From the NCBI RefSeq assembly GCF_026683955.1, contig NZ_CP113343.1:2108001-2172000 (forward strand): a DNA stretch of 64,000 nucleotides, given 5' to 3'. Positions 1 through 34,257 of this stretch are shown one piece after another; position 1 is the first letter of the stretch, and each line of letters starts with the position of its first letter. Made by a program: the position numbers and the translations under genes. A model generated the notes under the pieces. That model ran no database searches and was not told where the DNA came from. It worked only from the letters and a program-made list of their open reading frames with translations. The DNA comes from Arthrobacter sp. MMS18-M83. Lineage in GTDB: Bacteria; Actinomycetota; Actinomycetes; Actinomycetales; Micrococcaceae.

Positions 1-535
1 TGATCCAGGCGAGCAGCTCGTCAAGAGTCTTGGGCGGAGTAGCCACAGTCTTGGTGTCATATGCCAGGAGCACTGCGGACCCGCGGTACGGGATGCCGCC
101 CGTGCCACCGGCCTTGATGACATCCTGCGGGACATCGTTCAGGGCCGAAATCGTCTGCGAGCTCACGGAGGTCAGCAGGTTGGCTGCGGAGGCCTTGGGA
201 ACGAAGCCGCCATCCACCAGATCGAAATCTGGTTCCTTGTTCTGCTCTGTGGCGCTGGTCAGTTTCGCCAGTGTCTGGGCGTCGTGCTCACCGTGCAGAT
301 CCAGCGTGACTTTCACGTGGTAGCCGGGGTTGGCCTTTTCGAACGCGGGAACAAGGCTCTTTTCCCACAGGTTCTGGACGTTGGTGTCCCCACTGATGAA
401 CACGGTGACCGTCTTGTCCGGTGATGCGCTCGCGCCATTGTTCTGGGCCGATGCGGTACTGCTTTGCGCGCAGCCGGTCACAGCGGTGGCTGCAACTACG
501 GCGACGGCGGCCGCTGCTAGGAAGCGGTTGGTCAT
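1..535 (-). CDS. ABC transporter substrate-binding lipoprotein, N-terminal part (runs off left edge)
   Basis: The ATG at 535 opens a frame that continues to the window edge, about 178 residues. The N-terminus has a hydrophobic signal segment and the lipobox VTGC (Cys about residue 22), followed by a Ser/Ala/Asn-rich linker typical of membrane-anchored binding proteins. After it comes KTVTVFISGDTNVQNLW and a stretch ending in an aspartate-rich DFDLVDGG, like the first lobe of extracellular solute-binding proteins of the iron/polyamine/sugar type. It should capture a solute outside the cell for an ABC importer encoded further left, outside the window. The substrate cannot be told from this fragment. 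Confidence 0.8.
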   Translation of the reverse strand, partial: MTNRFLAAAAVAVVAATAVTGCAQSSTASAQNNGASASPDKTVTVFISGDTNVQNLWEKSLVPAFEKANPGYHVKVTLDLHGEHDAQTLAKLTSATEQNKEPDFDLVDGGFVPKASAANLLTSVSSQTISALNDVPQDVIKAGGTGGIPYRGSAVLLAYDTKTVATPPKTLDELLAWI

Positions 536-8783: not shown

Positions 8784-8843
8784 TGTGATCCCCACATAGA
8801 AGGTACCGGCGTCACAATGCCACCGAGCAAATGACGCCTCAGG

Positions 8844-8877
8844 ATCGGCCTGCGTGGTACTCCACGCAGGCCGATCA
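8844..8877. terminator. Strong hairpin between convergent genes
   Basis: A perfect 15-bp stem (8844-8858 pairing with 8863-8877) with loop TACT separates the importer operon from the convergent amidase gene and overlaps the amidase stop codon. There is no long T run, but the stem is strong enough to act as a bidirectional terminator. Confidence 0.65.
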
Positions 8878-10281: not shown

Positions 10282-10462
10282 TCGCGTCACCTCCAGGGGT
10301 TGCCCGCAAACGTTGGGGGTCGAAATCGGCCCTCAGGACGGCCATGCCCTGCTGAAAATCACCGAAAGAGCGTTCGACGGCGGAACTGTCCTCTTGCAGG
10401 ATGTCCTCGCCAACCAGCTCGATGAGTCGCGATCGCTGGTCCGGGGTCAGCTGCCCGTTCAC
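10274..10462 (-). CDS. Small protein translationally coupled to amidase, possibly GatC/AtzG-like
   Basis: A 62-residue frame starts with GTG overlapping the stop of the amidohydrolase gene and ends overlapping the amidase start. It is acidic and helical, with no membrane segment. Several amidase-signature enzymes (GatA, AtzE) need a small GatC-like partner encoded directly beside them, and this gene has that size and position. Sequence similarity to GatC or AtzG is not obvious by eye, so the partner role is inferred from context only. Confidence 0.5.
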   Translation of the reverse strand: MNGQLTPDQRSRLIELVGEDILQEDSSAVERSFGDFQQGMAVLRADFDPQRLRATPGGDAND

Positions 10463-11832: not shown

Positions 11833-11857
11833 TCGACTCCCTATCGATTAGGTTCAT

Positions 11858-11880
11858 GATATCGAAGTATCTTCACTATA
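11858..11880. promoter_or_regulatory. Operator-like motif TATCGAAG...CTTCACTATA in divergent promoter region
   Basis: The gap between the amidohydrolase (minus) and the deacetylase (plus) holds an 11-bp palindrome GAAGTATCTTC (11864-11874) within a TATCGAAG...CTTCACTATA context. A near copy ending in the same ten bases occurs at 16508-16530, and related copies lie at 14230, 22212 and 26041. I infer a site for the local XRE-cupin regulator. Confidence 0.5.
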
Positions 11881-11900
11881 ACCACAGAGGAGATTCAACC

Positions 11901-12860
11901 GTGTCCGTTTCCTCCACCAACCGTGATTTCGTGGGCTACGGCGAGCAGCCGCCGGAGTTCCGCTGGCCCGGAGGTGCGCGCGTAGCCGTCTCCCTGGTGA
12001 TCAATGTTGAAGACGGAGCGGAGCGCAGCATCGCGCGCGGTGGTTCGGCCGACGATCTCGGAGCCCATTGGATCAAGCACCCAGCCCACCCCACAGTCCG
12101 GAACCTCACGCTCGAATCGGCTTTCGAGTACGGATCTAGGGCAGGCATCTGGCGTGTGCTCCGCATTTTGAGGCACCACAAGGTGAAGGCAACAGCCTTC
12201 TGCTGCGCCACGGCACTTGAGCAAAACCTGCAGATCGCCGCTGCGCTCGTCAGGGATGGCCACGAAATTGCCGACCACGGTTACAACTGGGATACCCATG
12301 CCGGGCTCGCTTCCGATGAGGAACGCGCGCTCATTACAGGGTCGCGCGACTCCATCGCCAAGAGCACCGGCGTTCCGCCCACGAGCTGGTACTCCCGCGA
12401 CGGACTCAACCCGGGCACACGGGACATCCTCGCCACCGAAGGATTCATGTACGAGTCCAATAGCTTCAACGATGACTTGCCCCATCTGGGAACGGGGAAG
12501 GACGGAACAGGACTGCCCGTGCTGCCCTACGCGGGCGATACCAACGATTCGGGCCTGTTCACGCAGTTCCCCACGGCCGCCGCGTTCGCCCGTCAACTGT
12601 GTGGCACCTTGGACATGATGCTCACTGACAGCCGGTCCGGACCGTCCGTGATGAACGTGGGCCTCCACCCGCGCCTCATTGGCCGTCCTGCTTACGCCGT
12701 CGCCATGGACACCTTCTTGTCCCACGCCAGTAGGAATTCGGCATGGATTGCGACGCGTTCGCAGATCATCGAAGCGTGGCAGCTGAAGACCCGGCAAACG
12801 CCCGGACCCGCAAGCAGCGGCGACTGCAGCACCACCGGAAGTAACGCCGTCGAGCCCTAA
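11901..12860 (+). CDS. PuuE-type polysaccharide deacetylase-fold hydrolase (allantoinase-like)
   Basis: I take the GTG at 11901, preceded by GAGGAGA, to give 319 residues. The NodB-like fold is recognisable from WPGGARVAVSLVINVEDGAE at the start, the His motif EIADHGYNWD, and YSRDGLNPGTRDIL. The PuuE branch contains allantoinases and cyclic-imide hydrolases rather than sugar deacetylases. The neighbouring amidase, amidohydrolase and racemase-fold genes fit ring-opening of a cyclic amide. A paralogue lies at 15526. It converges on, and overlaps by 4 bp, the racemase-fold gene. Confidence 0.85.
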   Translation: MSVSSTNRDFVGYGEQPPEFRWPGGARVAVSLVINVEDGAERSIARGGSADDLGAHWIKHPAHPTVRNLTLESAFEYGSRAGIWRVLRILRHHKVKATAFCCATALEQNLQIAAALVRDGHEIADHGYNWDTHAGLASDEERALITGSRDSIAKSTGVPPTSWYSRDGLNPGTRDILATEGFMYESNSFNDDLPHLGTGKDGTGLPVLPYAGDTNDSGLFTQFPTAAAFARQLCGTLDMMLTDSRSGPSVMNVGLHPRLIGRPAYAVAMDTFLSHASRNSAWIATRSQIIEAWQLKTRQTPGPASSGDCSTTGSNAVEP

Positions 12861-13582
12861 ACGGTGGCGAGCAGAGCGCCCCATCCCGGAATCGGGCGCG
12901 CGGTTCCGGCCAGTTGGAGGAGATACCACAGCGTGGCTGTTGCGCTGTCGACGACCGGCACGCCGAACTCGGATTCGAATCCGGCCGCCAGGTAGGCCGA
13001 ACGAAGATTCGTCCCAATACAGACAACGGCGTCGACGCCCGGCCCGAAAGCCGGCCTCATCAGAGCGTCGATATCGGCGCCGGACATGCGCGAGATTTCC
13101 GGGTTGGACATTGAGATCGCGGGGACTGAGGAGCGGACCACTTCCAGTCCGCGGGCGGAGTACTCACGTTCGATCAGCGCCATGATGCTCGCGGGGCCGG
13201 GAAAAACGACGGCGACCCGGCCGGCGTCGAGCGCGGCCAGGGCGGCCACAAGAGCCAGGGACGCAGTGGTGGCCGGCGCGCCGGTGGCCTCCGTCAATGA
13301 TTCGGCGAGTGCCCGATCGCCTTCAAGGCCGGTCCAGGATCCCGATGTTCCGTGGAATGCAACTGCGTCCAACTCGGCGTCACGGAGCAGCGACGGCGCG
13401 TCGCCGAGAACCTTCGCGTCGATGCGGTCATCAAGGTCCGCCGGAAGCCGGAAACGGCTGTAATGAACCCCGATGTCCGGCGATCCGGCCAGGATGTCAG
13501 CTGTCAGCGATTCCGCGTTGGAATTCGACGACGGCACGAGCATCCCCAAACGGGAGGAGGGGCCCGGTGGGCAGCTCGTCAA
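12857..13582 (-). CDS. Asp/Glu racemase-superfamily protein, arylmalonate decarboxylase/maleate isomerase branch
   Basis: A 241-residue protein whose TTG start overlaps the stop of the XRE gene. It has the duplicated fold of the Asp/Glu/hydantoin racemase superfamily: LGMLVPSSN at the start, FHGTSGSW around residues 76-82, and VVCIGTNLRS with the late cysteine at about 188. Maleate isomerases and racemases carry two cysteines. Here the first is replaced by the His-Gly of FHGTS, the pattern seen in single-cysteine arylmalonate decarboxylase. It may therefore decarboxylate or isomerise a dicarboxylic intermediate. Hydantoin racemase is the main alternative. Confidence 0.75.
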   Translation of the reverse strand: MTSCPPGPSSRLGMLVPSSNSNAESLTADILAGSPDIGVHYSRFRLPADLDDRIDAKVLGDAPSLLRDAELDAVAFHGTSGSWTGLEGDRALAESLTEATGAPATTASLALVAALAALDAGRVAVVFPGPASIMALIEREYSARGLEVVRSSVPAISMSNPEISRMSGADIDALMRPAFGPGVDAVVCIGTNLRSAYLAAGFESEFGVPVVDSATATLWYLLQLAGTARPIPGWGALLATV

Positions 13583-14196
13583 TGCGACTTACCCAGCGAC
13601 GGCGGAGTCGAGATCGCCACCATGACCGCAGCGGTGTCAGTGAGGTTGCTCCACCAATGCGGCAGGGTTGCGTCATAGGTCAGGCTGTCGCCCTCGCCCA
13701 AGGTGAATTCCTGTCCGCCGACACTTGCCACGAGAGTGCCGGTCTGGACCACGACGCACTCCTCACCCTCATGGGAGTGAGGAACCTCTGCGCCGTCAAA
13801 ATGCGCCGGGATGGTCATGTTGATGACGCCAAGCTTGCGGTCTGCGTCGGGCACGATCAGTTCCATGACGATTCCTTGGGAAGGAATCTCAATGCGGCGG
13901 CGATCGGCTCGGCGCACCAGCATGTGGTTCTGCGTCTCGCTGGGGTCGGTAAACATACTCGCCAGCGGCACACCGAGGGAATTGGCCAGGCGAAGGAGCG
14001 TGGCGAATGACGGATTACCGATGCCGCGCTCGATCTGGCTGATCAGTCCAGCGCTCACGCCGGCCCGGTCCGCCAACTCTTCCACCGTGAATCGCCCGGC
14101 CCGCTGCTCCTTGAGCATGGCGCCCAAATGGGTGATCCACAGGTTGCGGTGCATGGTGTCATCGTCGTCGACTTTAACAACTTCCGTGCTTCCCAA
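13579..14196 (-). CDS. XRE-cupin transcriptional regulator
   Basis: The TTG at 14196 is supported by GAGGAG five bases upstream; the product has 205 residues. Residues about 25-85 form an HTH_3 domain (ELADRAGVSAGLISQIERGIGNPSFATLLRLANSL). The C-terminal cupin (PHSHEGEECVVVQTG) probably senses a pathway metabolite. Regulators of this type often control amino acid, putrescine or aromatic catabolic operons. It sits among the genes it likely controls, and a repeated motif found in five nearby intergenic regions, including just upstream of this gene, is its best candidate operator. Confidence 0.88.
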   Translation of the reverse strand: MGSTEVVKVDDDDTMHRNLWITHLGAMLKEQRAGRFTVEELADRAGVSAGLISQIERGIGNPSFATLLRLANSLGVPLASMFTDPSETQNHMLVRRADRRRIEIPSQGIVMELIVPDADRKLGVINMTIPAHFDGAEVPHSHEGEECVVVQTGTLVASVGGQEFTLGEGDSLTYDATLPHWWSNLTDTAAVMVAISTPPSLGKSH

Positions 14197-14228
14197 TACA
14201 GCTCCTCAGTGTCGAACACTCATCATCA

Positions 14229-14255
14229 GTATATCGAAGAATCGTCAACTAAACG
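14229..14255. promoter_or_regulatory. Operator-like motif upstream of the XRE-cupin gene
   Basis: GTATATCGAAGAATCGTCAA, followed by a second CGAAG at 14254, matches the left half of the motif found at 11858 and 26041 (TATATCGAAG). Its position about 35 bp before the regulator start suits autoregulation. The right half is degenerate, so confidence is moderate. Confidence 0.4.
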
Positions 14256-14351
14256 AAGAATCCCGGCAGGATCCTCCGGCGTCGAGCCTTTTCTTCATCG
14301 TCACAGCATGCCAGCATCGGTGTGGCGGCAGAAGAACCACACGGCTCACTT

Positions 14352-15098
14352 TCACAAGGAGTCATACCTTTTCCAATGCGTCTCCGGAGCGCCGGCGGCA
14401 GCCAACTGGGCGATCATCGAAGCAAGCTCCCGCTCCCAGTACACCGCGGCACGATCGGCGCCCCGGGCGTGGACATCGCCAGCACTGGCAATGTCGGCTG
14501 CGGGAAGGCCCACGCTTTGACCGGCTGCTCCAAGGACGTCTACGACGCGCTGGACGGATTCATCAAGCGCGCCCGCCCCAGGCCTCCCCCGTTTCAGCAG
14601 TTCGCCCGCAAGATCCGTGGGGCCCACCCAGCCGCCATCGAAACACTCCAAAGCCACAAAGTCTTCGACCGCGTCGACTGCTTCTACGGTCTCAAAAAGC
14701 ACGGTCAGCCGGGGTTCCAATGAATAGTCCGCCCCAAACGCCGAAGCGAACGAAGCCTGCCTTGGACGGGTCCCGCCGGGTCCAAATCTCGTCGCCCGGT
14801 AAGCACACTCAAGTTCTTCCGGACGCCGCACCCTGGGCAGGACAATTTCGTCCACCCCCGTATTGGCGAACGCCACCAAGGTCATATCGTCGAGGTCAGG
14901 AACCCGGACGGCAACGCGGGTAATGGCCCCTGAGAGTCGCTGGACCGCATCCGCACATTGCTGCAGGGTCAGCGTTGTCTGCTCCGCGTCAAGGACCACG
15001 AAATCGAGGTTCCGGTAGGCAACCACGGACAACAGGGTGGGGGTCGGCTCGGCCGTGATGAGTCCGACTTGCCGGACCAGCGAGGACGGCGCCATCAT
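14352..15098 (-). CDS. HpcH/HpaI aldolase-family protein
   Basis: A 248-residue protein that resembles class II HpcH/HpaI aldolases: LDFVVLDAEQTTLTL near the start (usually the DxEH region), RVPDLDD, and the FETVEAVDAVEDFVAL block that normally holds the metal-binding Glu. The later GGWVGPTDLAGEL matches the GPxDL signature. The family cleaves 2-keto-4-hydroxy acids to pyruvate and an aldehyde. Its start overlaps the stop of the cupin gene (ATGA), placing it last in the deacetylase, cupin, aldolase operon. It may carry out the final carbon-carbon cleavage. Divergence from typical members makes the exact reaction uncertain. Confidence 0.75.
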   Translation of the reverse strand: MMAPSSLVRQVGLITAEPTPTLLSVVAYRNLDFVVLDAEQTTLTLQQCADAVQRLSGAITRVAVRVPDLDDMTLVAFANTGVDEIVLPRVRRPEELECAYRATRFGPGGTRPRQASFASAFGADYSLEPRLTVLFETVEAVDAVEDFVALECFDGGWVGPTDLAGELLKRGRPGAGALDESVQRVVDVLGAAGQSVGLPAADIASAGDVHARGADRAAVYWERELASMIAQLAAAGAPETHWKRYDSL

Positions 15099-15496
15099 TC
15101 GTCCGCCACGAACAGCCAGTCGGCGGGCTTGCTGACTCCGACAACCATGTTGACATCTTCGTCGCGGTCGTTCGTGATGCCGTGGGTGGTGCCGCGAGGG
15201 ATGTAGATGCCATCGCCGGGCTTGGCCCGGTACTCGGTGTCGCCCAAATGGACGAGGGGTTCACCTGAAATAACCACGTAGAACTCGGAGGCATCGGGAT
15301 GGTGATGGCACAGATGATGCTGGCCGGGGAGAATCCTGCCCCAACTGATGCATAAGTCGTCGGATCCGCTGAGGTCACGTGAGATGAGAGTGGACACGAG
15401 GCCTTGGTCCCGCTGTCCGCGAAGGCCCGTCTTGTCCAGGGCCGTGAAGCCCTGATCGTTGACATTGTGGACTAACTGCGAAATATCCGTGCCCAT
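15095..15496 (-). CDS. Single-domain cupin protein
   Basis: The ATG at 15496 follows a GGAGGGAGGG ribosome site and gives 133 residues. The cupin core shows CHHHPDASEFYVVISGE (metal-binding His cluster and Glu) and PGDGIYIPRGTTHGI for the second motif. Small cupins of this kind act as isomerases, dioxygenases or metabolite-binding proteins. Lying between a PuuE-type deacetylase and an aldolase, it probably acts on an intermediate of the same pathway. I cannot tell which. Confidence 0.8.
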   Translation of the reverse strand: MGTDISQLVHNVNDQGFTALDKTGLRGQRDQGLVSTLISRDLSGSDDLCISWGRILPGQHHLCHHHPDASEFYVVISGEPLVHLGDTEYRAKPGDGIYIPRGTTHGITNDRDEDVNMVVGVSKPADWLFVADE

Positions 15497-15525
15497 CGGC
15501 GCCCTCCCTCCTGGCATTGACGTGG

Positions 15526-16449
15526 TCACGCTCGGCCTTCGTACGCCGCTTCGAGTTGACCGACGGCAGGCGGATTCGCGATCCACCACCGGGCAATTTC
15601 CTCCCTCGTGGCGAACCAAACGTCCTTCCGTGCAAGGGCATACTCCAAGAAGCGCCGGACCCCCAAGGCGACGCTGGGCCGTCCACCGATGCGCAAGTGC
15701 ACTCCTACGGACATCATCCTGGGCACGGTTTCTCCCTCGATCAGAAGGCAGTCGAGGCTGTCCTTCAGTACATTGAAGAAGTCATCTGCCGTGCCGAGGC
15801 TTCCAGGGCCCCAAAACCTCGCGTCATTCGTGTCGCCCGCGTAAGGGACCACAAGGTGGCGGGACTCTCCGGCGGAGACGAAGTACGGCAGGTCATCCGC
15901 ATAGGAATTGGAGTCATAGAGAAAGCCCTCATCCTTGAGGATCGCCCGGGTGTTCTCGGTGATGCCTTCGCGGACGTACCAACCCACGGGCCGAACGCCG
16001 GAAACCCCTTCGATCGCCGCTACGCAGGCCCGAATCTCGGCAAGTTCCTCGGCCGGCGTCATTCCGACCGTGCCACGCCATTTGTAGCCGTGCGCACAAA
16101 TCTCGTGTCCATCGCGAACGATCGCCTGGGCGGCCTCCGGGTTTCGCTCCAGGGCGACACCACAGGCCATGAAGGTCGCGGGCACGTTGTAGTCCCGGAG
16201 CAAACCCAGGTAACGCCAGATGCCCACCCTGCTGCCGTATTCAAAGAAGGATTCCTTCATCAAGCTTCGGCGGCTTGGATCTGAAGACCAGCCCCCGAAA
16301 ATCGTGACGTCTTCATCGCTTTCGTCACCGGCTTCTATTGAGCTCTCCGCGCCTTCCTCGTAGTTGATGACCATGGAGATGGCCACCTTGGCACCATGCG
16401 GCCAGGTCACGACCGGGGGGTTTTCCCCGTATCCAATGAGGTCTCGCAT
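15526..16449 (-). CDS. PuuE-type polysaccharide deacetylase-fold hydrolase, second copy
   Basis: A 307-residue paralogue of the protein at 11901. Shared blocks include RDLIGYGENPPVVTWPHGAK at the N-terminus, FFEYGSRVGIWR, HEICAHGYKW and YAGDTNDA. The last is also present in the other copy as YAGDTNDS. Only about half the residues look identical, so this is an old duplication with probably different substrates. It is the first gene of a short operon with a cupin and an aldolase. An operator-like motif lies about 60 bp upstream at 16508. Confidence 0.85.
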   Translation of the reverse strand: MRDLIGYGENPPVVTWPHGAKVAISMVINYEEGAESSIEAGDESDEDVTIFGGWSSDPSRRSLMKESFFEYGSRVGIWRYLGLLRDYNVPATFMACGVALERNPEAAQAIVRDGHEICAHGYKWRGTVGMTPAEELAEIRACVAAIEGVSGVRPVGWYVREGITENTRAILKDEGFLYDSNSYADDLPYFVSAGESRHLVVPYAGDTNDARFWGPGSLGTADDFFNVLKDSLDCLLIEGETVPRMMSVGVHLRIGGRPSVALGVRRFLEYALARKDVWFATREEIARWWIANPPAVGQLEAAYEGRA

Positions 16450-16533: not shown

Positions 16534-17361
16534 TCAGCAGCCTTCTGCATAGACCCTTTTGTGCGCCGCCAGCGACGTCCGGAGCATCCCGTTGACGTCG
16601 TCGATCACGTTGCCATGCGCCGGGCCGATCAGCCTGGTGGGAAGCTCATCCAACACCGCCTCTATGGCGTCAAAGGCCTCGCTGACGTCGACGAATTTCG
16701 TCCAGTAGAGAGCCCTCCCGGTCCCGTACGCCGCTTGCTCCACGGTGGGGGGTTCAGGCATCTCGCCGGACAGCAAACGGCACTGGCCGGGAAGGTGTAC
16801 CGGTTCGTCGTCGTCCTCTGCTGCGCCCGCCGCCCCGCCCGCTGCGGGGACATCGTGGATAAAGGAAAAGCCGTCCGAAACAAACATCATCCGGGCACCG
16901 TCGTCGTGGCCCCACAACGTGTTCTCAAGGTCCCGGATGAAGGCTGGAAGGAAGCGGAACTCCCGATCCCCGAGATCGATCCGGCTGCCTGCCGTTTGGG
17001 TCCTGAACCTGGCCCGGTATTCGGGGAAATGCAGATGGTAATCACGAACGTCGCCCACCACGAGCGCCTCGGGATACTTGTCCAGCAGGGCAGGCAGGTT
17101 CCCGGCGTGAGGGATTTCGGGATGGGTCGGGAAGACATAATCCAGGGGGCGTTCGCCGAGAACCAATTCCAGCTGGGCCAGAAGGACTGCGCGGTGGGCC
17201 GGATCCCCGGTGTCTACCAGCAGGGTCGCTTTGGAGCCCACCACCAGATAGGACGAGACGTGATAGTGGACTTCCTGCCCTTGGGCGTTGGCCGACAGGC
17301 AGCCACCCAGCCAGTAAGTTCCGTCGGCAAGCCATCGTAGTTCGACTGCATCGGTGTTCAC
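16534..17361 (-). CDS. Metallo-beta-lactamase-fold protein, type A of first pair (HPEIPH motif)
   Basis: The GTG at 17361 overlaps the upstream stop (GTGA), giving 275 residues. The fold is evident from LLVDTGDP, THPEIPHAGN (residues 79-88), SDGF (about 162) and PAHGN (about 247). The usual HxHxDH or flavodiiron-type HxExDH motif is changed to HxExPH, and the later GH motif is replaced by FIRDLENTLW. So some ligands remain (His80, Glu82, His85, Asp163, His249) but the set is incomplete. It is coupled to the type B gene at 17358 and has a close paralogue at 20559. The reaction is unknown; hydrolysis or redox of a ring-opened product is a guess. Confidence 0.8.
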   Translation of the reverse strand: MNTDAVELRWLADGTYWLGGCLSANAQGQEVHYHVSSYLVVGSKATLLVDTGDPAHRAVLLAQLELVLGERPLDYVFPTHPEIPHAGNLPALLDKYPEALVVGDVRDYHLHFPEYRARFRTQTAGSRIDLGDREFRFLPAFIRDLENTLWGHDDGARMMFVSDGFSFIHDVPAAGGAAGAAEDDDEPVHLPGQCRLLSGEMPEPPTVEQAAYGTGRALYWTKFVDVSEAFDAIEAVLDELPTRLIGPAHGNVIDDVNGMLRTSLAAHKRVYAEGC

Positions 17362-18083
17362 TGAATACCCATTTCCTCGATTGCCCGCGCCAGTTCCCCC
17401 GCCTGATCGAGGCACATGTCCGTGCCACCAAAGGGAGTTCCGTAACTCGGCCCGACGGCGCGCACATCGCGGTTCCGAAAGATGTCTCTAATGTTCCGGG
17501 CGATCGGCCCGGTATCCGCCCCGGAGAACCAGCGAAATTTCCGGAGCCCCTCGCGAGCTTCCGGTACGGCACTCCCCCCATGCGTGAAAGCGTCCGAGGT
17601 CAGCAGCCCGCCTGATTCCGGGTCGAAAACCCAGAGGGTCGGCAGAAGCCGGAGGAGCGGTGAAACGAGTTCGACGACGACGCCGTCCATCACCTTGACC
17701 CGCATCGATGATCCGGGGTCCACGGCAATCCGCTTGGATTCGGCTTTCGAACGCGGCACCGTGATTCCGCCGGTGTACCAGACGGAGCCAACCGTGAAGC
17801 GTTCTTCGATTGCCGGGATGTTGAGGCAGCATTCCATTTCAGTGCGGGTGAGGACAATAGACAGCGGCTCACCGGGTGATAGCAGTCGATCAAGCTGTTC
17901 GATGATGTCCGCCTGGTGAAGGCGAACTCCGGTATCCACGAGTACTGACCCGGACGGGCCCTTGATCAGATAGCAATTCACCGCCTGCGTACGCCGTATG
18001 CCAGGCGGGCACCAGCTCACGCGCTCGTCCAGCTCGATGTCCCCGCCGAGCCGGTAGATCCGGCCGGTAAGCAAGCCTTCCAT
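17358..18083 (-). CDS. Degenerate metallo-beta-lactamase-fold protein, type B of first pair (RTEMEC motif)
   Basis: A 241-residue protein with a good ribosome site (GGGAAGGAG). LVDTGV (about 49-53), LTRTEMECCLN (about 78-88), LLRLLPTLW, TSDAFTHG and GPSYGTP line up in order with the motifs of the type A partner. Every metal-binding His is lost: HxExPH becomes RxExEC, and the final HG becomes YG. It is probably a non-catalytic or differently active partner that pairs with the type A protein encoded immediately downstream with a 4-bp overlap. A homologue with the same losses lies at 21385. Confidence 0.75.
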   Translation of the reverse strand: MEGLLTGRIYRLGGDIELDERVSWCPPGIRRTQAVNCYLIKGPSGSVLVDTGVRLHQADIIEQLDRLLSPGEPLSIVLTRTEMECCLNIPAIEERFTVGSVWYTGGITVPRSKAESKRIAVDPGSSMRVKVMDGVVVELVSPLLRLLPTLWVFDPESGGLLTSDAFTHGGSAVPEAREGLRKFRWFSGADTGPIARNIRDIFRNRDVRAVGPSYGTPFGGTDMCLDQAGELARAIEEMGIQ

Positions 18084-18112
18084 CGTCGCTCCTTCCCTTG
18101 GATCCGAATAGT

Positions 18113-18787
18113 TCAGGAGGTGCTGGCCGTCTCCCAGACAGAGATCGCTTCATCGAGCGTGCAAACATCGTGCCGTGCTCGCATGACTGTCAACGCGGCG
18201 TCGTGCACGACGGCGTCGTAGGCTCCCACCGCATCCTCAAGCAGCACGGCATAAAAATCGTTGTGTACGGCGTCGCGCAGGGTTGCCTCCACACAGCCAC
18301 CGGTGGACACGCCCACAAGCGCAACCGACTCAATCCCTTGGCTGCGCAGCAGCAAGGCGAGTTCGGTGGCAACGAAGGCGCTGGGTCGACGCTTGGTGAT
18401 GATGACTTCCCCGTCCTCGGGCATGCAGGGTTCGCAAAATTCGGTCGCGGGGTCACCTTTGGCGCTCAGTTTGCCAAGGTCGATGGGGCGACCATTGGCT
18501 GCTGTGTACAAGGCGCGCAACCAGGCCGCCGGGGAACTCGCGCCGTCGGGAAGGTTCTCGACACGGATGTGGAAAACCGGCACGCCATTGGCGCGGGCTG
18601 CGTCGATGGCGCGCCCGCACTTTTCGACGACGGACGGCATCATGGTCATGTCATGCCCGGAATCCCCGATTGCGCCACCGGACGAAACGGCCCCCACCTG
18701 CATGTCGATGACAACCAGCGCGGTGGTGGCAGGATCGAGCAACTCCTGGAGGGTGTCGCGCACGGGTTTGCCGCAAATTTCAATCAT
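18113..18787 (-). CDS. Isochorismatase-family cysteine hydrolase
   Basis: A 224-residue protein with the full catalytic triad of the family: Asp28 in LVVIDMQ, Lys132 in TKRRPSAF and Cys165 in GVSTGGCVEATLRDA, following a cis-peptide region. The family includes N-carbamoylsarcosine amidase, nicotinamidase and ureidoacrylate/biuret hydrolases, so an amide or carbamoyl hydrolase is the likely role here. It lies between the binding protein and the first metallo-beta-lactamase pair, with short gaps and the same strand, so all are probably co-transcribed. Confidence 0.88.
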   Translation of the reverse strand: MIEICGKPVRDTLQELLDPATTALVVIDMQVGAVSSGGAIGDSGHDMTMMPSVVEKCGRAIDAARANGVPVFHIRVENLPDGASSPAAWLRALYTAANGRPIDLGKLSAKGDPATEFCEPCMPEDGEVIITKRRPSAFVATELALLLRSQGIESVALVGVSTGGCVEATLRDAVHNDFYAVLLEDAVGAYDAVVHDAALTVMRARHDVCTLDEAISVWETASTS

Positions 18788-18893
18788 GGTCTTCTTCCTT
18801 TACAGGGGATCTGGGGGCTTAGGAGATCTGGGGTCGAGTGAGTTCTGGTCGACAGTCGCCCGCCGGCCAGAACTACCCGCTTCGCAGGGTTGC

Positions 18894-20486
18894 TTACTTG
18901 CCCAGACCGGCGAAATAGACTTGGTCGTTGGTGAGCGGCACGGCCCCTGTAAGGGTGTCCTGCTTGATGATCAGGTTCCTGACCTCCACCAGGGAGAGAA
19001 TCGGGGCGCCTTGATCCACCAATCCAGCCATCTTCTTGAGCAGGGCTGTCCGCTGGTCGGTATTCGCGCTGGGTGTGGAGGCCAGCTGAGTCCGTGTGGC
19101 ATCGAATTCAGGGTTGGACCATCCGGTGCTGTTGCTCGGAGCTCCAGTGGAGTAGAACGCGTAGGTGTAGAACGCGGGATCGGCGATGACAATCGGCTCG
19201 GAGTACAGGACAGCTTGGAAGCGGCCTTCGATGAGCGCCGAGGAGAAGTCGGTCGGACTCGCTACATTCAGCAGCTGCACGGTGATGCCGACCTTCGCCA
19301 GCATGGATTGGATGAGGACGGCCGAACTCTTCGCGACTGGACCCGGGCGGCTCACGCTGTAGCTGAGCGTCAGCGGGAATCCACTCGCGTACTGGGTCTG
19401 AGCCAGCAGCTTCTTGGCACCGTCGGGATCGTATTTGTAGGTGGGCGAATCCTTCACCGTGGGGAAGATCGACCCTGCCGGGTCAGCGAGACCTGCGTAG
19501 GCGCCCTTGGCCAGGGCATCACGGTCGATCGCCATGGACACGGCCTGGCGGACCTTTTCATCTGCCAAAGGACCGGTCTTCGTATTGAACATCATGGTGT
19601 CGCGGGTCTGGCTGGTGCATTTCAGGACACTGACTCCACTGACTCCGGTCATCGAACCGTACTGCTCATATTCGAAGCCGTTGGCAATCTGGGCCTCGCC
19701 GGTCTTGATAAGTTGTGTCCGGGTGGCTGTGTTGGGAACAGCTTTGACCACTACCCGCTTGACCGAGCCCCGCTCGCCTTCCCACTTGGGGTCCGCGGTA
19801 ACTGTCAGGGAGGTTCCAGGTGTGAACTCTTCGAGCTTCCAGCCGCTGTAGTCGGCCAGGTTCTTGGAGAGCCATTTGTTAGCGGTGGGGTCATCCGACG
19901 TGACGTGGAGCTTCGCTTCCTTGCTGTCGTGGATGTAGAACAGGTTGTTCTGCAATGACTCAAGCGTGTAGGAAGTCATTCCGAGGGTGTTGAGCTCGAC
20001 AGTCTGGTCGTCGATCACGGTGACGAGGTTGTCAACGTTGAATCCGCTGCTCTTGAGTGTCCCCTTCATGACTGGCTGGCGCACCATGCCAATCGCCAGG
20101 CTCCATTTCACGTCCTCCGCCGAGAGCGTATTCCCGACTTGGCTGGTGAGCTTCCGCAGCTTGACGATGATCCCCTTGCCGTCCGAGGCGGGTGCGGCAC
20201 TCTCGGCGAGCCGACCGGTCACCGCGGTGGACGGCGTCGAGCACGATTCGTCGTCCTTTGCCCCGGTCTTGTACTGAAGCAGTTGGGAACCGAGGCCGCT
20301 GAGCACCACATGTGATGCGCTGCCGCCCCAAGGCGCGGGGGTGAGACTGTCCGGGAGGGCGCCGACGGCGATGACAACCGACTCAGGTTTGGCCACCTGG
20401 GCGGCGGGGGATGCCCCCGCGCATCCCGTGAGTGACACAGCTGCCGCGGCTGCGAACCAGCCGAGCAATAGACGCGAATTCTTCAT
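18894..20486 (-). CDS. Family 5 (peptide/nickel-type) ABC substrate-binding lipoprotein
   Basis: A 530-residue extracellular solute-binding protein. The lipoprotein signal ends at the lipobox LTGC, and the mature protein shows the family 5 layout: TLSAEDVKWSL near residue 125, KVRQAVSMAIDRDALAKGAY, and YKYDPDGAKKLLAQTQY. It should capture the substrate for the DppBCDF-like importer encoded at 22276-25947 in the same direction. The family handles oligopeptides, nickel chelates, opines and other amides, consistent with the amide-hydrolysing genes around it. Confidence 0.9.
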   Translation of the reverse strand: MKNSRLLLGWFAAAAAVSLTGCAGASPAAQVAKPESVVIAVGALPDSLTPAPWGGSASHVVLSGLGSQLLQYKTGAKDDESCSTPSTAVTGRLAESAAPASDGKGIIVKLRKLTSQVGNTLSAEDVKWSLAIGMVRQPVMKGTLKSSGFNVDNLVTVIDDQTVELNTLGMTSYTLESLQNNLFYIHDSKEAKLHVTSDDPTANKWLSKNLADYSGWKLEEFTPGTSLTVTADPKWEGERGSVKRVVVKAVPNTATRTQLIKTGEAQIANGFEYEQYGSMTGVSGVSVLKCTSQTRDTMMFNTKTGPLADEKVRQAVSMAIDRDALAKGAYAGLADPAGSIFPTVKDSPTYKYDPDGAKKLLAQTQYASGFPLTLSYSVSRPGPVAKSSAVLIQSMLAKVGITVQLLNVASPTDFSSALIEGRFQAVLYSEPIVIADPAFYTYAFYSTGAPSNSTGWSNPEFDATRTQLASTPSANTDQRTALLKKMAGLVDQGAPILSLVEVRNLIIKQDTLTGAVPLTNDQVYFAGLGK

Positions 20487-20558
20487 AATCCTGGTTCCAA
20501 TTTCTGTACAGAGGGAAAGGACGTGTTACGAGTAGTGCGCTGCTGACGTGGCAGTGGA

Positions 20559-21374
20559 TTAGTAACGGTAGGCGTGCTTATGGCCGGCCCGGATGATGGG
20601 CGCTACCTCCGGGATATTGGTGATCACGTTGCCGTGGGTGGGTGCCACGATCTTGACCCCAAGGTCATCCATCAGCTTGCCGACGCGGTCGTAAACCTGA
20701 TCGGCGTCGTTGGCGAATCTGGCCCAGTACAACGCGCTGCCGGTGAAGAAGGCAGCATTCTCGACGGCAATAGGTGCCGAGAGCTCATCTGTTGTCAGGC
20801 CACATTCGCCGGGGAGGTGCACCGGATCCTCATCATCGAGTTCCGGACGGTGCATGTAGCAAAATCCGTCGGCTGTGAAAAGCACACCCGACTTCGGCAC
20901 GAAGCCCCATTGGGTATTCGGCAGATCCCTGATCATCGCCTCGACGATCACGAATTCGTATCCGCCGCCAAGATCCACCCTGTCCCCTGGAACCCGGGCG
21001 TGAAGGTTGGGCACGATCTGCGGGTAGAAAAGGTGGTAATCCCGAATGTCGCCAACGATCTTGATGTCGGGGTACTTCTCGACGAGGCGCGGAAGGTTTC
21101 CCGTGTGCGGGAGCTCCGGGTGGGTCGGGAAGACGTAGCTCAGGGGTTTGTCCCCCAGCAAACCGTCGAGGGTTTCCGAGATGATGTTCCAGCTGGAGGG
21201 ATTGCCCGTGTCGATGAGGATTGACGACTCGGTCCCCTGCGCGAGGTAGGTCGATGTGTGCCCGTGGATAACGCGGTCCTGGAGATGGAAAGGAAGGCAC
21301 GAACTCATCCAGGTGACGCCGTCGGCCACCTCTCGCGGAAGGTCGCGGCTCATTGTTTCTACTAGTTCTTCCAT
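20559..21374 (-). CDS. Metallo-beta-lactamase-fold protein, type A of second pair (HPELPH motif)
   Basis: The ATG at 21374 has AGGAGA upstream; product 271 residues. It shares with the protein at 16534 the diagnostic blocks IDTGNP, FPTHPELPHTGNLP, VGDIRDYHL, MIRDLPNTQWG, ADGFCYMH, VHLPGECGL and PTHGN. The first metal motif is again HxExPH, with Pro where the metal-binding Asp is expected, and the GH motif is again Arg-Asp. The strong conservation of these departures between two diverged copies argues that they are functional. It follows the type B gene at 21385 after only 10 bp. Confidence 0.8.
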   Translation of the reverse strand: MEELVETMSRDLPREVADGVTWMSSCLPFHLQDRVIHGHTSTYLAQGTESSILIDTGNPSSWNIISETLDGLLGDKPLSYVFPTHPELPHTGNLPRLVEKYPDIKIVGDIRDYHLFYPQIVPNLHARVPGDRVDLGGGYEFVIVEAMIRDLPNTQWGFVPKSGVLFTADGFCYMHRPELDDEDPVHLPGECGLTTDELSAPIAVENAAFFTGSALYWARFANDADQVYDRVGKLMDDLGVKIVAPTHGNVITNIPEVAPIIRAGHKHAYRY

Positions 21375-21384
21375 GGGGATTCTC

Positions 21385-22209
21385 CTAAGCCTTTTCCGGC
21401 GCCAACGCCGCGAGCATGAAATCCAGGTGCCGACGTACCAGCTCACGCCCGCGGATCACACAGCCACGGGAAGGGGCAATGGTTTCAGGGGCCAGAGTCT
21501 CGAACTTGTCCGAGAGCCATTCGCGTAGCGGCTCGCACGTAGCCCGCGGGATCCACTCGTATTTCGCGTAGAGATGCTCGGCAACCTGCTTGGCCGTGGT
21601 GGTGTCCTGGGCCAACGAGTCGATGATCCGGGAACCTTCCGGACTCGTCATGGTCCCGTGGGTGAAGGTATCCGAGGTGAAGATGGTTCCTGTATTCGCG
21701 TCCCAGCCCCAGAAGGTCGGGAGGAGCCGCAGGAGCGGCGACTCGATGGTCAAGTGACGCCCGGGCGCCACCTCGATCTCGGGGGTCCGGGCCATGGAAT
21801 CGCCGCCCTCTCCCTTCTGGTCGATCTGCTGCCGACGGCCTCGGAGCGCGAGGCGGCTGAGGTCATCGAAGGCATCGAATGGGTTGATGGCGCCACCGGT
21901 GAAGAGGCGCTCGATCTCGAATTTCCCGGCAATGGGTTCAAGGTTCGAAACGCAGTCCATCTCGCTCCGCGTGAAAAACATGGAGAGCCGGCCGTCATCT
22001 TCAAGCAGTTCAACCAGGTCATCGAGGATCTCCTGGCTGTGGACAGCGAGCCCGGTGTCGACCAACAGCCGGCCGGAACCCTCACTGAGGAGATAGCAAT
22101 TCGACGGCTGGAAGCCGGTTGCTCCGGCTGGCACCCAGCTAACGCGGCCATCGAGCGGAATGGTTCCACCGAGGGCGATAACTTTATCTTCATGCACTTT
22201 AGTGAACAT
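21385..22209 (-). CDS. Degenerate metallo-beta-lactamase-fold protein, type B of second pair (RSEMDC motif)
   Basis: A 274-residue homologue of the protein at 17358, matching it at VSWVPAG, SNCYLL, LVDTGL, FTRSEMDCVSNL, SPLLRLLPTFW, TSDTFTHG and APSRG. HxHxDH is replaced by RSEMDC and the last His by Arg, so it lacks the normal dinuclear site. A roughly 30-residue charged insert follows LFTGGAINP. The annotated ATG lies only 2 bp from an operator-like palindrome (22212-22227) and has no clear ribosome site. Translation may be leaderless or may begin at the GTG four codons in. Confidence 0.72.
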   Translation of the reverse strand: MFTKVHEDKVIALGGTIPLDGRVSWVPAGATGFQPSNCYLLSEGSGRLLVDTGLAVHSQEILDDLVELLEDDGRLSMFFTRSEMDCVSNLEPIAGKFEIERLFTGGAINPFDAFDDLSRLALRGRRQQIDQKGEGGDSMARTPEIEVAPGRHLTIESPLLRLLPTFWGWDANTGTIFTSDTFTHGTMTSPEGSRIIDSLAQDTTTAKQVAEHLYAKYEWIPRATCEPLREWLSDKFETLAPETIAPSRGCVIRGRELVRRHLDFMLAALAPEKA

Positions 22210-22275: not shown

Positions 22276-23346
22276 TCAGGAGTTGGCTGAGGTGATCGCA
22301 GGCGTTGAGCGCACCCGCGGCTGACGTCGTCCTGCCACCGCCTTGCTGCGCGTGCGGGGGTCCAGAAGGGTTATCAGGGCGTCGAGAATGACATAGCCGA
22401 GCAAGCTGGTGGATCCCATGATGAGGACAAATCCTTGAATGACGGGAACGTCACCTTTGAGCACGCCGTCGAGCGACCAACTGCCCACCCCAGGCCAGGA
22501 AAACACGCTTTCCACAATCGCCGCGCCACTGAGGGACGCCGCAAAAAGGAGTACCAAGTAGGTCATGAGTGAGCCGCGAATGTCGCTGAGCGCATACCGG
22601 AACACCTGGGCTGGACGCAGTCCGCAGGCCCTCGCAAACTCGATTTGTGGCGATTGGAGCACCTGCAAGAGGCCAGAGCGCACCGTCTTGCCGAACGGTG
22701 CCGCGAAGAACAGGCCCATGGTGACGATGGGAAGGACTGCGCGGCCAAGGATTGACGAAAACGTGGCCCACTGACCGGCAATTATTGCGTCAATGGGAAC
22801 TGACCCCGTGACGTGCGGCGGGGTTATCTGGGCGCTGGAGAGCATGCCTATTGGCGCGGGCGCGATCCGCAGCTGCTGATAGAAGACGAACAACAGCAAG
22901 AGGGCCAGCACGAATTCCGGCATCGCCATGAGGATGGATATCCAGAATGTGAATGTCTTGTCGGCAAAGCGCCGGTAGCGGTACGCCGCTACCGTTCCGC
23001 TCGCCATGCCGATGATGAGGGCCAAGGCGAGTCCGGGAATCAAATAGATCAAGGTATTGGGGAGCCGGGTCATGATTTCAACGGATACCGAACTGCCGGT
23101 GAAGAGCGAATGGCCGAGGTCGCCGCTCAGCGTTCTGGACATGTACTCGAGGTAGCGTTCCCAGAAAGGCAGGTCCAGGCCAAGCTCAGCGTGAATACGG
23201 GCGATGTCCCCCGGCGTCGCGTATTCGCCCAGCAGCGCCACCGCCGGATCCCCGGGAAGAAGGGATACGAGGCCAAAACTGAGCGTAACGAGGCCACACA
23301 GCAGTAAGGCTGCAATGACGAGCCTTGAAATGATGTAGCGGATCAT
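22276..23346 (-). CDS. Peptide-type ABC transporter permease (DppB-like)
   Basis: The ATG at 23346 overlaps the ATPase stop (ATGA) and gives 356 residues; a longer frame upstream lacks a reason to be translated. The protein opens with MIRYIISRLVIAALLL, contains LPNTLIYL and has the permease EAA loop EFARACGLRPAQVFRYALSD. The family forms one half of the membrane channel for family 5 binding proteins. It is last in the order permease C, ATPase, ATPase, permease B, and the binding protein lies further downstream. Confidence 0.9.
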   Translation of the reverse strand: MIRYIISRLVIAALLLCGLVTLSFGLVSLLPGDPAVALLGEYATPGDIARIHAELGLDLPFWERYLEYMSRTLSGDLGHSLFTGSSVSVEIMTRLPNTLIYLIPGLALALIIGMASGTVAAYRYRRFADKTFTFWISILMAMPEFVLALLLLFVFYQQLRIAPAPIGMLSSAQITPPHVTGSVPIDAIIAGQWATFSSILGRAVLPIVTMGLFFAAPFGKTVRSGLLQVLQSPQIEFARACGLRPAQVFRYALSDIRGSLMTYLVLLFAASLSGAAIVESVFSWPGVGSWSLDGVLKGDVPVIQGFVLIMGSTSLLGYVILDALITLLDPRTRSKAVAGRRQPRVRSTPAITSANS

Positions 23347-24155
23347 GAAATCTTCCCCTGAAGATTCGTGGTGGCAACGGTTGCGGCATAGGGAACCACT
23401 GGCAGCGCGGCGGAAATGAGCGATTGCGTGTAGGGGTGCTGTGGCGCCATCAACACGTCCTGGGTAGGGCCAACCTCGACGATTTTTCCGCGATACATCA
23501 CGGCAACCGTGGAACAAAAATGCCGCACAGTTTCGATGTCATGCGAAATGAAGACGTACGTCAGGCCCCGCGAAGCCCTCAGGCGCGCGAGGGTACGGAG
23601 GATCGAGGCCCGTATGGTCAGGTCAAGCGAGGATGTTGGCTCGTCCAGGACCACCAGGCTGGGATTCGTCACCAGAGCCCGCGCAATGCCTACGCGCTGC
23701 TGTTGACCGCCGCTCAGGTTCGCCGGACGCCGGTCCATGAAATCAGCCGAAAGGCCAACCTCTTCCAAGGTCGCCAAGACCCGCAATCGCCGCTCGGCGC
23801 GGGGGCCGATCCGGGCGACGACGAGCGGCTCCTCTACTATCTGCCGGATCGTCAGGCGCGGGTTCAATGAAGCGAAAGGTTCTTGGAAGACAATCTGCCA
23901 ATGGCGGCGCTTCTTGCGCAGTTCGCCACTGCTGAGGGCCAACACGTCCTGCCCTTCGATGACCACGGATCCGGAGTCCGGCTCGACCAATCTCAGGATC
24001 AAGCGGCCGAGCGTCGACTTGCCGGAGCCGCTTTCGCCGATGATGCCAAGCGTTTCGCGGGCCTCCACGGACAGGGTGATGCCATCCACGGCGCGTGCTT
24101 CTCCGTAAGGAGTGCGGAAGATCTTCGTGACATCCACGAGTTCAAGGAGCGGCAT
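23343..24155 (-). CDS. Peptide-type ABC transporter ATP-binding protein (DppF-like)
   Basis: I select the ATG at 24155, which has GGAGG eight bases upstream; an overlapping TTG at 24161 is too close to that site. The protein has 270 residues. Walker A is GESGSGKST, the signature LSGGQQQRVGIARAL, Walker B LVVLDEPTSSLD and the switch ISHD. The C-terminal tail with the oligopeptide-type PHPYTQSL motif is present. It pairs with the second ATPase encoded immediately upstream. Confidence 0.92.
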   Translation of the reverse strand: MPLLELVDVTKIFRTPYGEARAVDGITLSVEARETLGIIGESGSGKSTLGRLILRLVEPDSGSVVIEGQDVLALSSGELRKKRRHWQIVFQEPFASLNPRLTIRQIVEEPLVVARIGPRAERRLRVLATLEEVGLSADFMDRRPANLSGGQQQRVGIARALVTNPSLVVLDEPTSSLDLTIRASILRTLARLRASRGLTYVFISHDIETVRHFCSTVAVMYRGKIVEVGPTQDVLMAPQHPYTQSLISAALPVVPYAATVATTNLQGKIS

Positions 24156-24157
24156 TC

Positions 24158-25048
24158 TCAAGACCTCCGGGCTTCGGACAATTGGACCTTCGAGGGGTCT
24201 GGTGATTCCGGCTCCCCGGCATCCGGGGTCTCCGCGCTGCCTGGCAAGTACGGCGTCTCGTCTTCGGGACGCACCACGGAGTTGAGCAGCGAGATCGTGT
24301 AAGGATGCTGCGGACGAACGAAAACGTCGGCAACGAGCCCTTGTTCCACGATGCTTCCGCGATACATCACCAGCACGCGGTTGCAGTATGCGGCCACCAC
24401 ACCGAGGTCGTGGGTCACAATCAGCATCGAGCGGCCGCTCACGACTGTCAGGCGGCGAAGGGTGTCAAGCACCTGTCGCTGCACGGTAAGGTCGAGCGCC
24501 GTCGTCGGCTCATCCGCGATTACCAGCTGGGGATTAAGGTAGAGCGCCATGGCGATGACCACGCGCTGCGCCATACCGCCGCTGAGTTCGTGCGCGTAAC
24601 CGCGCAGCACGCGCTCCGGGTCGCGGACTCCCGTCGATTCCAATAGCTGCAGTGCGCGGTTGCGCTCCGAGGCATCTACCTTCACGCCGTGCGCCTTGGC
24701 GATATTGGCAAACTGCTTTTCGATGCGGGTCACCGGGTTCAAGGCGCTGAACGGATTCTGGGCAATGAATCCGATGTCCTTTCCCCTGATTTGGCGCATG
24801 TCCCGCTCGGGCAGCCCGAGGAGACTGCGCCCAGCGAAGGTAACAGTGCCGGCCGACACCTTGCCCGGCGGCATCAACAGCTTGGTGATGGAACGGACTA
24901 CCGTCGATTTGCCTGAACCGGATTCGCCGACAATTCCGACGATCTCGTTGTCCTGCACGTCAAAAGAAACTCCGTGCAATGCTCGGACCACACCCTTGGG
25001 AGTGTTGAACTCGGCTTCGAGTTCCTTGACTTGGAGGGCCTTGTTCAT
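24158..25048 (-). CDS. Peptide-type ABC transporter ATP-binding protein (DppD-like)
   Basis: A 296-residue ATPase with Walker A GESGSGKST, a Q-loop in IAQNPFSALNP, signature LSGGMAQRVVIAMAL, Walker B LVIADEPTTALD and VTHD. The C-terminal PHPYTISLL segment marks it as the peptide/opine-transporter type. Its start overlaps the stop of the permease C gene. The last 25 residues are Pro/Glu-rich and unlike the usual iron-sulphur cysteine tail of DppD, so no cluster is expected. Confidence 0.92.
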   Translation of the reverse strand: MNKALQVKELEAEFNTPKGVVRALHGVSFDVQDNEIVGIVGESGSGKSTVVRSITKLLMPPGKVSAGTVTFAGRSLLGLPERDMRQIRGKDIGFIAQNPFSALNPVTRIEKQFANIAKAHGVKVDASERNRALQLLESTGVRDPERVLRGYAHELSGGMAQRVVIAMALYLNPQLVIADEPTTALDLTVQRQVLDTLRRLTVVSGRSMLIVTHDLGVVAAYCNRVLVMYRGSIVEQGLVADVFVRPQHPYTISLLNSVVRPEDETPYLPGSAETPDAGEPESPDPSKVQLSEARRS

Positions 25049-25947
25049 CGGGTTTGCTCCACTCGTTCCATCTTGTTCTCAATGGCGCCGGCAATGATGT
25101 TGAGCGAGCCGATGACCACCAGCAGGGCCAGCGAGGGAAACGCCACGGCCCACCACTGACCCCGGATCAGCATGCTGACGCCGTCTTCGATCATCGCGCC
25201 CCAACTTGGCTGGGGCGGCTTGACGCCGACGCCCAGGAAGTTCAGGGCTGCAATCGTGCTCAAGGCCCCGGCCGTGGTCAGCGTGGCCTGCACCAGGATC
25301 ACGCCGTAGGCGTTCCTGAAGATGTGGTTGAAGGCCACACGGATGGGCGAACATCCGATGGCGACCGCAGCCTCGACGTACCTGGAGGAGCGGAGCGAGA
25401 TCGCCGCTGCCCGGGACAGGCGAACAAATCGCGGTGCTGCAACCAGGGCGATGGCGAGGACGACATCAGTGGCTCCGCCGCCCATGAGCTGGATGGAAAC
25501 CACCGCGATCACGATGATGGGGAGCGCGGCAAAGGCGTCAACCACCCGCATGATCGCTTCCCCAGCCATCCCGGTAGTGGCGAACAAGCCCAACGGAACG
25601 CCGATGACGAGGGCAATGGCCGTCGCCGCTAGCGAGATGGGAAGGTCGAGCCGCGCCGACTCAATCGTGCGGGAGAACACGTCCATGCCGTTGCCGTCCG
25701 TGCCAAACCAATGAACGGCATTGGGGGCCAGGGCCATGGATTCCACGTCCGGTTGTAGGGGGTTTTGGGGAAGGCGGAGAAGAATCGCCGCAAGTGGAAG
25801 TCCCACAATGATGCCGGCAGCGACGACGGCGAGGACCGTCCCTGATCGTTTGTACGCCCAGGCCCTGCTTTGCTTGGCCCAGTTCGACGCACGTCCGCCC
25901 AGGGACGTCACTGGAGTCCGGGACTCGACTGTCGTAGTTTCACTCAA
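25045..25947 (-). CDS. Peptide-type ABC transporter permease (DppC-like)
   Basis: A 300-residue permease. It has the DppC-type soluble insert NAVHWFGTDGNGMDVFSRTI after the first helix and the EAA loop EAAVAIGCSPIRVAFNHIF. TTG at 25947 is the outermost start and lacks a strong ribosome site, so the start is uncertain. It is the first gene of the importer operon and is read divergently from the aminotransferase, with motif copies between. Confidence 0.88.
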   Translation of the reverse strand: MSETTTVESRTPVTSLGGRASNWAKQSRAWAYKRSGTVLAVVAAGIIVGLPLAAILLRLPQNPLQPDVESMALAPNAVHWFGTDGNGMDVFSRTIESARLDLPISLAATAIALVIGVPLGLFATTGMAGEAIMRVVDAFAALPIIVIAVVSIQLMGGGATDVVLAIALVAAPRFVRLSRAAAISLRSSRYVEAAVAIGCSPIRVAFNHIFRNAYGVILVQATLTTAGALSTIAALNFLGVGVKPPQPSWGAMIEDGVSMLIRGQWWAVAFPSLALLVVIGSLNIIAGAIENKMERVEQTR

Positions 25948-28167: not shown

Positions 28168-30773
<2,606 letters not shown>

Positions 30774-34224: not shown

Positions 34225-34257
34225 GTGGGTGTCCTTGGGTGTTGTGACGCTTCGCGC

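Follow-up and report, generated by a model that had tools for sequence, protein, structure and literature searches.

The 64,000-nucleotide stretch of the Arthrobacter sp. MMS18-M83 genome analysed here (contig NZ_CP113343.1, positions 2,108,001 to 2,172,000; hereafter the window, in whose coordinates positions are given) encodes two pairs of metallo-beta-lactamase (MBL)-fold proteins, each combining a type A and a type B member with altered metal-site motifs. Both pairs had been described in an earlier note, and they are present with the motifs it gave, on the minus strand, all four products being MBL-fold. Pair 1 (16534-18083) and pair 2 (20559-22209) each read B then A, with genes that overlap or nearly abut, the GTG start of A1 overlapping the B1 stop. 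The A proteins carry HPEIPH and IRDLENTLW (A1) or HPELPH and IRDLPNTQW (A2), and the B proteins RTEMEC (B1) or RSEMDC (B2), with the last His replaced by Tyr in B1 and by Arg in B2. The site residues are H80, E82, P84, H85, D144, D163 and H249 in A1, and R80, E82, E84, C85, R145 and D164 in B1.

Matches to the Pfam Lactamase_B model have E values of 1.6e-11 (A1), 7.5e-10 (A2), 1.3e-4 (B1; 22.4 bits, slightly below the 22.7 cut-off) and 0.015 (B2), and by Pfam the superfamily membership of B1 and B2 is weak. The A and B profiles match no further gene of the genome at E<=0.001, leaving two pairs only. At the same threshold A1 has 265 relatives (120 of the 265 among the matches listed) and B1 has 88, including the window's own, and almost every A and B row in the comparison shows the motif pattern. 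These relatives, together with the selection analysis below, rule out chance or decay as the origin of the pairs.

Metal-site residues of the two protein types

The nearest solved relatives of A and B are the flavodiiron proteins (FDPs), with the chemotaxis sensor ODP (oxygen-binding diiron protein) also near, rather than the HxHxDH zinc enzymes against which the earlier note had measured the departures. Profile alignment to FprA (1ycf) instead gives the FDP set HxExDH..H..D..H as reference, while the HxHxDH of Zn-dependent MBL hydrolases is found in neither type (HxExPH in A, RxExxC in B). Sequence and fold both identify an FDP-type MBL domain, one per protein, with no flavodoxin domain in A (271-275 residues) or B (241-274 residues) at Pfam E<=10. 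Matches to the Pfam ODP model fall below its 27.2-bit cut-off (A1 19.2, A2 17 and B1 12.1 bits; B2 no match), and many relatives of A1 and B1 carry a precomputed PF19583 label. Judged from its sequences, the A/B family is neither an FDP, having no flavodoxin domain and an incomplete ligand set, nor an HxHxDH hydrolase.

In FDP numbering, the ligand set of A is H79, E81, H84, Asp at position 146, the bridging D165 and H226. Ligands were counted after leaving out rows with fewer than 150 filled columns, duplicate loci and one locus with broken frames (Arthrobacter sp. Hiyo8, below); some rows may be shared between the locus and protein-hit sets, and many are close relatives of one another. Positions 79 and 83 served to sort rows into types, and these two columns therefore differ by construction; the tree separates A from B on the whole sequence. 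Among 179 A rows, H79, H84, D146 and H226 are invariant, position 81 is always Glu or Asp, D165 is present in 178, and position 83 holds Pro in 178 rows, the remaining one having Thr; five additional A-like rows have Ala there. Type A therefore keeps five of the seven FDP ligand positions and has Asp at the sixth (His in FDPs), Pro for D83 being the outright loss. The earlier statement that A retains some ligands is thus correct, with the site less altered than claimed, and the unusual single-metal site also suggested is not the best reading, as most of the two-metal FDP-type set remains.

With this set retained, A is probably a working, acid-rich metal enzyme and likely holds a metal, for which Fe or Mn would suit better than Zn given the abundance of acidic ligands. 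An acidic residue is reported at the fourth-His position of the Fe- or Mn-binding MBL proteins 3BV6, CmlA and UlaG (PMC7846560), a position that presumably corresponds to His146, and acid-rich ligand sets are reported for MBL oxidoreductases (PMC7785958). UlaG and CmlA share this type of His-to-acidic change with A, and belong to other families that are not among the matches listed (60 of 68 sequence matches). Three actinobacterial MBL proteins (L050, L058, L061) have HxDxDH, Asp at the fourth-His position and D83 kept; unpaired in the stretch fetched, they may represent a stage between FDPs and the paired proteins. One genome of the window's genus (G450, locus L119) has just a single pair, of another type with Thr for Pro83, near a SOR_SNZ (pdxS-type) gene.

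Bacterial B has none of the His ligands at 79, 84 and 146. Across 146 rows, Arg occupies position 79 in all and position 145 in 144, D165 is invariant, E81 is kept in 144 (Asp in two), and an acidic residue (Glu or Asp) fills position 83 in 141; at position 84 there is Cys in 129 rows, Ser in 11, Thr in three, Val in two and Ala in one. The last His, said earlier to be replaced in type B, is indeed lost from B1 and B2, and most often gives way to Tyr (91) or Arg (21), but the replacement is not universal, His persisting in 19. Compared with nine related loci, the ratio of non-synonymous to synonymous substitution rates (dN/dS) is 0.09-0.32 for B1 (9/9) and 0.02-0.22 for B2 (8/9; the ninth saturated), with dS above 1 in the more distant comparisons. 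B is therefore under purifying selection and its pattern is a conserved new motif, not decay, as the earlier note had held. Bacterial B is described here as a pseudo-subunit with a predicted loss of the metal site; since the ligand His residues are replaced and the carboxylates kept, Arg79 and Arg145 probably form salt bridges with the latter instead of metals.

Pairing, fusion and co-inheritance

A partner was found in 22 of 22 genomes or records chosen for holding A, in which all candidates were scored at E<=1e-15 (48 matches, 24 pairs); chosen in this way, they test the presence of a partner and not the occurrence of a lone B. In the window's genus, 11 of 150 genomes, its own included, hold 42 matches forming 21 pairs, with shortened frames in one of the eleven (G525). 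Across the phylum, 396 genomes add three pairs above 150 bits, the remaining matches reaching at most 123 bits; 17 of these weaker matches were examined and are FDPs or other MBL proteins with no second match adjoining. Four of 385 alphaproteobacterial genomes hold the family, among them the central genome of the survey, which was selected because it carries a pair; this set contributes three more pairs. Each family match adjoins its partner, giving 51 pairs in total, and no lone A or B, named in the earlier note among the findings that would refute its reading, appeared beside them in any of these sets, the genus, phylum and alphaproteobacterial surveys scoring only the top candidates per genome, so that remote singles could escape. 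In the 40 pairs used for the tree, both genes always share a strand, in the order B-A (29), A-B (nine) or fused (two), the A/B label being arbitrary in six haloarchaeal and Paracoccus pairs of this set.

Natural fusions join the two types in one open frame with the B half first, at three loci in Nitratireductor, Antarcticimicrobium and Mesobacterium (547-555 residues). Used as a protein query, the Mesobacterium fusion retrieved itself and five further fusions, four sharing 72-83% identity and the fifth (P0214) 36%, all having an Arg-type N-terminal and a His-type C-terminal half; fusion lengths overall are 547-568 residues, and Pfam finds no extra signalling domain in them. A structure model of the Mesobacterium fusion (predicted local distance difference test, pLDDT, 84.9; predicted template-modelling score, pTM, 0.81), built with fused and B rows only, so that its A half rests on few rows, suggests that the halves adopt a defined arrangement. 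Fold searches with this model return single-domain matches, some with ranges extending into the other half (for example, 10..506); these overrunning alignments, of about 440-470 columns at 14-18 Å root-mean-square deviation, are not interpreted. The Nitratireductor alexandrii and Antarcticimicrobium luteum fusions look alike but for one residue and share the same flanking order of gene sizes, which suggests either a recent transfer or that one of the two assemblies is contaminated.

In a quick-search tree of 89 rows, with branches assessed by the Shimodaira-Hasegawa-like approximate likelihood-ratio test (SH-aLRT), 34 bacterial A proteins (all except Paracoccus) form one clade and 34 bacterial B proteins another (SH-aLRT 99 each). 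Haloarchaeal and Paracoccus proteins fall outside both, and in all seven such pairs (six haloarchaeal, one Paracoccus) the second member keeps the A-type ligand set, the choice of which member to call A being ours. Uniting every A protein in one clade, or every B protein, is compatible with the data by the approximately unbiased (AU) test (p-AU 0.54 and 0.57), so haloarchaeal A and B may be orthologous to bacterial A and B. As both partners are of A type in these lineages, the simplest history is probably that a metal-bearing gene was duplicated and that bacterial B lost its metal later.

Phylogeny also bears out the co-inheritance that had been proposed for test, the A and B trees mirroring one another. 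Distances within A and within B correlate at r 0.87 over the 34 bacterial pairs and 0.79 over 25 less similar pairs, with none of 5000 permutations as high in either set; nearest neighbours agree in 16 of the 25, and shared species history contributes to the correlation. In the five tree genomes with both pair types, each A stays with its own B. The tree rejects pair 2 as a recent tandem copy of pair 1, because the two cluster separately, each with pairs of the same type from different genera. Taken together, the 51 pairs without a lone copy, the mirrored trees and the natural fusions strongly indicate that the unfused proteins, too, form an A-B heteromer.

Gene neighbourhoods

The surroundings of the pairs in the window (Table 1) agree with the setting given earlier, an isochorismatase-family cysteine hydrolase and the binding protein of a peptide-type importer lying between them. 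The gene order is largely kept in Arthrobacter, Sinomonas and Microbacterium, as far as gene calls reach: aminotransferase, importer, B2-A2, binding protein, cysteine hydrolase, B1-A1, PuuE-like, cupin, HpcH-like, regulator, EutA-like, second PuuE-like, amidohydrolase and amidase, the part from cupin to amidase occupying 8875-15619. Gene calling is poor at some high-GC loci, and L113 has almost no genes called. The window cluster consists mostly of hydrolases, together with a regulator, cupins, an aminotransferase and an aldo/keto-reductase-like gene. Its two PuuE-like genes, both of the polysaccharide deacetylase family, lie on opposite strands of one cluster, with a hydantoinase/dihydropyrimidinase-like gene nearby. 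The window also holds a separate sugar locus. Scans of the window found no RNA families or tRNAs.

Table 1. Genes of the two A/B pairs and other features of the window
Feature	Position	Strand	Remarks
A1	16534-17361	minus	275 residues, MBL fold; predicted metal-dependent catalytic subunit of pair 1
B1	17358-18083	minus	241 residues, MBL fold; pseudo-subunit of pair 1
A2	20559-21374	minus	271 residues, MBL fold; predicted catalytic subunit of pair 2
B2	21385-22209	minus	274 residues, MBL fold, by Pfam at E 0.015 only; pseudo-subunit of pair 2
Cysteine hydrolase, isochorismatase family	18113-18787	minus	between pairs, and next to them in related actinobacterial loci; closest named models are biuret amidohydrolase and RutB, with scores far under cut-offs
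Solute-binding protein, peptide-type ATP-binding cassette (ABC) importer (SBP_bac_5)	18894-20486	minus	between pairs
Importer permeases and ATPases (dppB-, dppF-, dppD-, dppC-like)	22276-25947	minus	named by reading of translations and conserved order, not by profile
PuuE-allantoinase-like hydrolase, polysaccharide deacetylase family	15526-16449	minus	304 bits, cut-off 424.6
Amidase	8875-10290		conserved catabolic cluster
Amidohydrolase	10459-11832		conserved catabolic cluster
Second PuuE-like gene	11856-12860	plus	Polysacc_deac_1 by profile; PuuE by reading
Asp/Glu racemase / arylmalonate-decarboxylase-like EutA relative	12857-13582		conserved catabolic cluster
Helix-turn-helix-cupin regulator	13579-14196		conserved catabolic cluster
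HpcH/HpaI aldolase-like	14352-15098		conserved catabolic cluster
Cupin	15095-15619		conserved catabolic cluster
Hydantoinase/dihydropyrimidinase-like gene	28168-29592
Aldo/keto-reductase-like gene	29700-30773		named by reading only, no profile scan
Sugar locus	32596-40590		weakly endo-dextranase-like protein, sugar-type ABC permeases, phosphotrehalase-family alpha-glucosidase, ROK-type regulator

Elsewhere, both pairs are carried by a 1-Mb Arthrobacter plasmid, and the cluster of Arthrobacter sp. Hiyo8 has several frames broken or shortened (A1, A2 and B2), reflecting either decay or sequencing errors. A solute transporter gene lies in the shown stretch of 12 of 12 annotated plasmid loci (two from one strain, and counted without a random control), being of the tripartite tricarboxylate type in six. 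Redox genes adjoin some pairs: Fer4-Pyr_redox downstream in Rhodococcus, a Pyr_redox/FMO-like gene next to a fused copy and on the opposite strand, a Rieske protein in Natrinema and an FAD oxidoreductase in Halocatena. As annotated, the A gene of Halocatena marina shares its first 59 bases (8737-8795 of that locus) with the end of the gene for a 993-residue FAD-binding oxidoreductase, reflecting either a misannotated start or translational coupling. A fixed partner pathway was rejected, no Pfam family exceeding 4 of 58 or 4 of 50 proteins among the best 25 families per tally (108 proteins chosen from 132; 20 more scanned singly, some of them the same proteins). Apart from the partner itself, no neighbour family is common in these tallies.

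Proposed function and relation to known systems

On balance, each pair is probably a heteromer in which a metal-bearing A and a metal-free B hydrolytically open or cleave a small catabolic substrate. In this proposal A, an FDP-type MBL domain without the flavodoxin domain, would be the metal-binding catalytic subunit and B its non-catalytic partner, the division suggested in the earlier note, and B would stabilise A or shape its substrate pocket. Both duplicates would first have borne the A-type site, still kept in haloarchaea and Paracoccus, before B lost its metal in bacteria, and in the window two old, separately diverged pairs would serve the one catabolic cluster. The substrate may be a small molecule with an amide or a ring that enters through the peptide-type importer; a hydrolytic step is favoured because the window cluster is mostly hydrolases, and metal-assisted ring or amide opening would be the most likely reaction.

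Several points weigh against this proposal. The heteromer suggested earlier draws on pairing, mirrored trees and fusions, and the pTM of the fusion model bears on contact between A and B only indirectly. The replacement of Asp83 by Pro removes one ligand, so that A may bind one metal, or none strongly; reliance on A-picked records and top-candidate scoring could have missed lone remote copies; and, away from clusters like that of the window, the flanking genes differ greatly. Finally, an O2-using enzyme would agree better than a hydrolase with the FDP ancestry and with the redox genes that flank some relatives.

Such an enzyme, an O2-activating non-heme iron oxygenase or oxidase that retains FDP chemistry, oxidises a catabolic substrate and draws electrons from separate ferredoxin, Rieske or flavin partners, is rather unlikely, though some of the evidence speaks for it. 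E81 and D146 give the acid-rich site typical of Fe-containing MBL oxidoreductases, FDPs and ODP are the closest solved relatives, and redox genes stand beside the pair in Rhodococcus, Natrinema and Halocatena and beside one fused copy. Set against this, the flavodoxin domain is absent and D83 is lost, redox families make up a minority of the tallied neighbours, and the scanned genes of the window cluster include none recognisable as a ferredoxin, Rieske or flavin gene. It is improbable that A and B are independent enzymes travelling together in catabolic clusters, B having its own metal-free activity: both are old and diverged, and B retains Arg145 and the distinct motif R-x-E-x-(D/E)-C, which would be in keeping with acid/base or Cys catalysis, but they occur as pairs and fusions, and a catalytic Cys is hard to reconcile with the drift of position 84 in B. 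A role as an intracellular sensor or regulator resembling ODP, a chemotaxis sensor of related fold, would explain the varied neighbours, among which transporters and regulators are common, and is very improbable given the near-strict conservation of the A ligands, the location within enzyme clusters and the absence of an extra signalling domain from the fusions found.

The heteromer proposed here follows a design with precedents, one partner keeping a metal-ligand set and its homologue having lost it. No description of the A/B family was found in titles and abstract openings of the open-access literature, most subscription papers lying outside the search; to this extent the earlier statement that no such pairing is described stands for the family, but the design itself has been described before. 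In INTS11/INTS9, an active MBL-fold enzyme forms a heterodimer with a pseudoenzyme of the same fold that has no metal (PMC7980224). Together with CPSF73/CPSF100 it belongs to the eukaryotic MBL/beta-CASP nucleases, whereas by Pfam neither A nor B has a beta-CASP domain; a physical A-B heterodimer of this kind is suggested by the pairing and the fusions. In cyanobacteria, the canonical FDPs Flv3 and Flv4 are reported to pair with the non-canonical Flv1 and Flv2, which do not have the canonical ligands, Flv2/Flv4 being a heterodimer (PMC4390876). Flv2/Flv4 and Flv1/Flv3 are multidomain flavoproteins of photosynthetic organisms, whereas A and B are single-domain proteins among catabolic genes. 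Relative to the MBL domain of FDPs such as FprA and ROO, the A/B family differs in its two diverged subunits, one without metal ligands, and relative to ODP in its paired subunits and other ligand changes.

It is possible, and is offered here tentatively, that the pairs represent a widespread, undescribed class of flavin-less, FDP-derived two-subunit catabolic metalloenzymes, with an H-E-P-H/D/D/H Fe/Mn site in A, arginine in place of metal in B, and the haloarchaeal pairs preserving an ancestral condition with metal in both subunits. If this is true, labels such as 'MBL fold metallo-hydrolase', 'flavorubredoxin' and 'hypothetical protein' would cover two halves of one enzyme, and B, which is often unnamed, would be overlooked if A were assayed alone. 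The conversion of a catalytic subunit into a pseudo-subunit would be traceable inside one family, through a testable series running from two metal-bearing subunits (haloarchaea, Paracoccus) to a metal-free partner (the other bacteria examined) and on to the fused chain, with a bearing on how pseudoenzymes arise and are retained.

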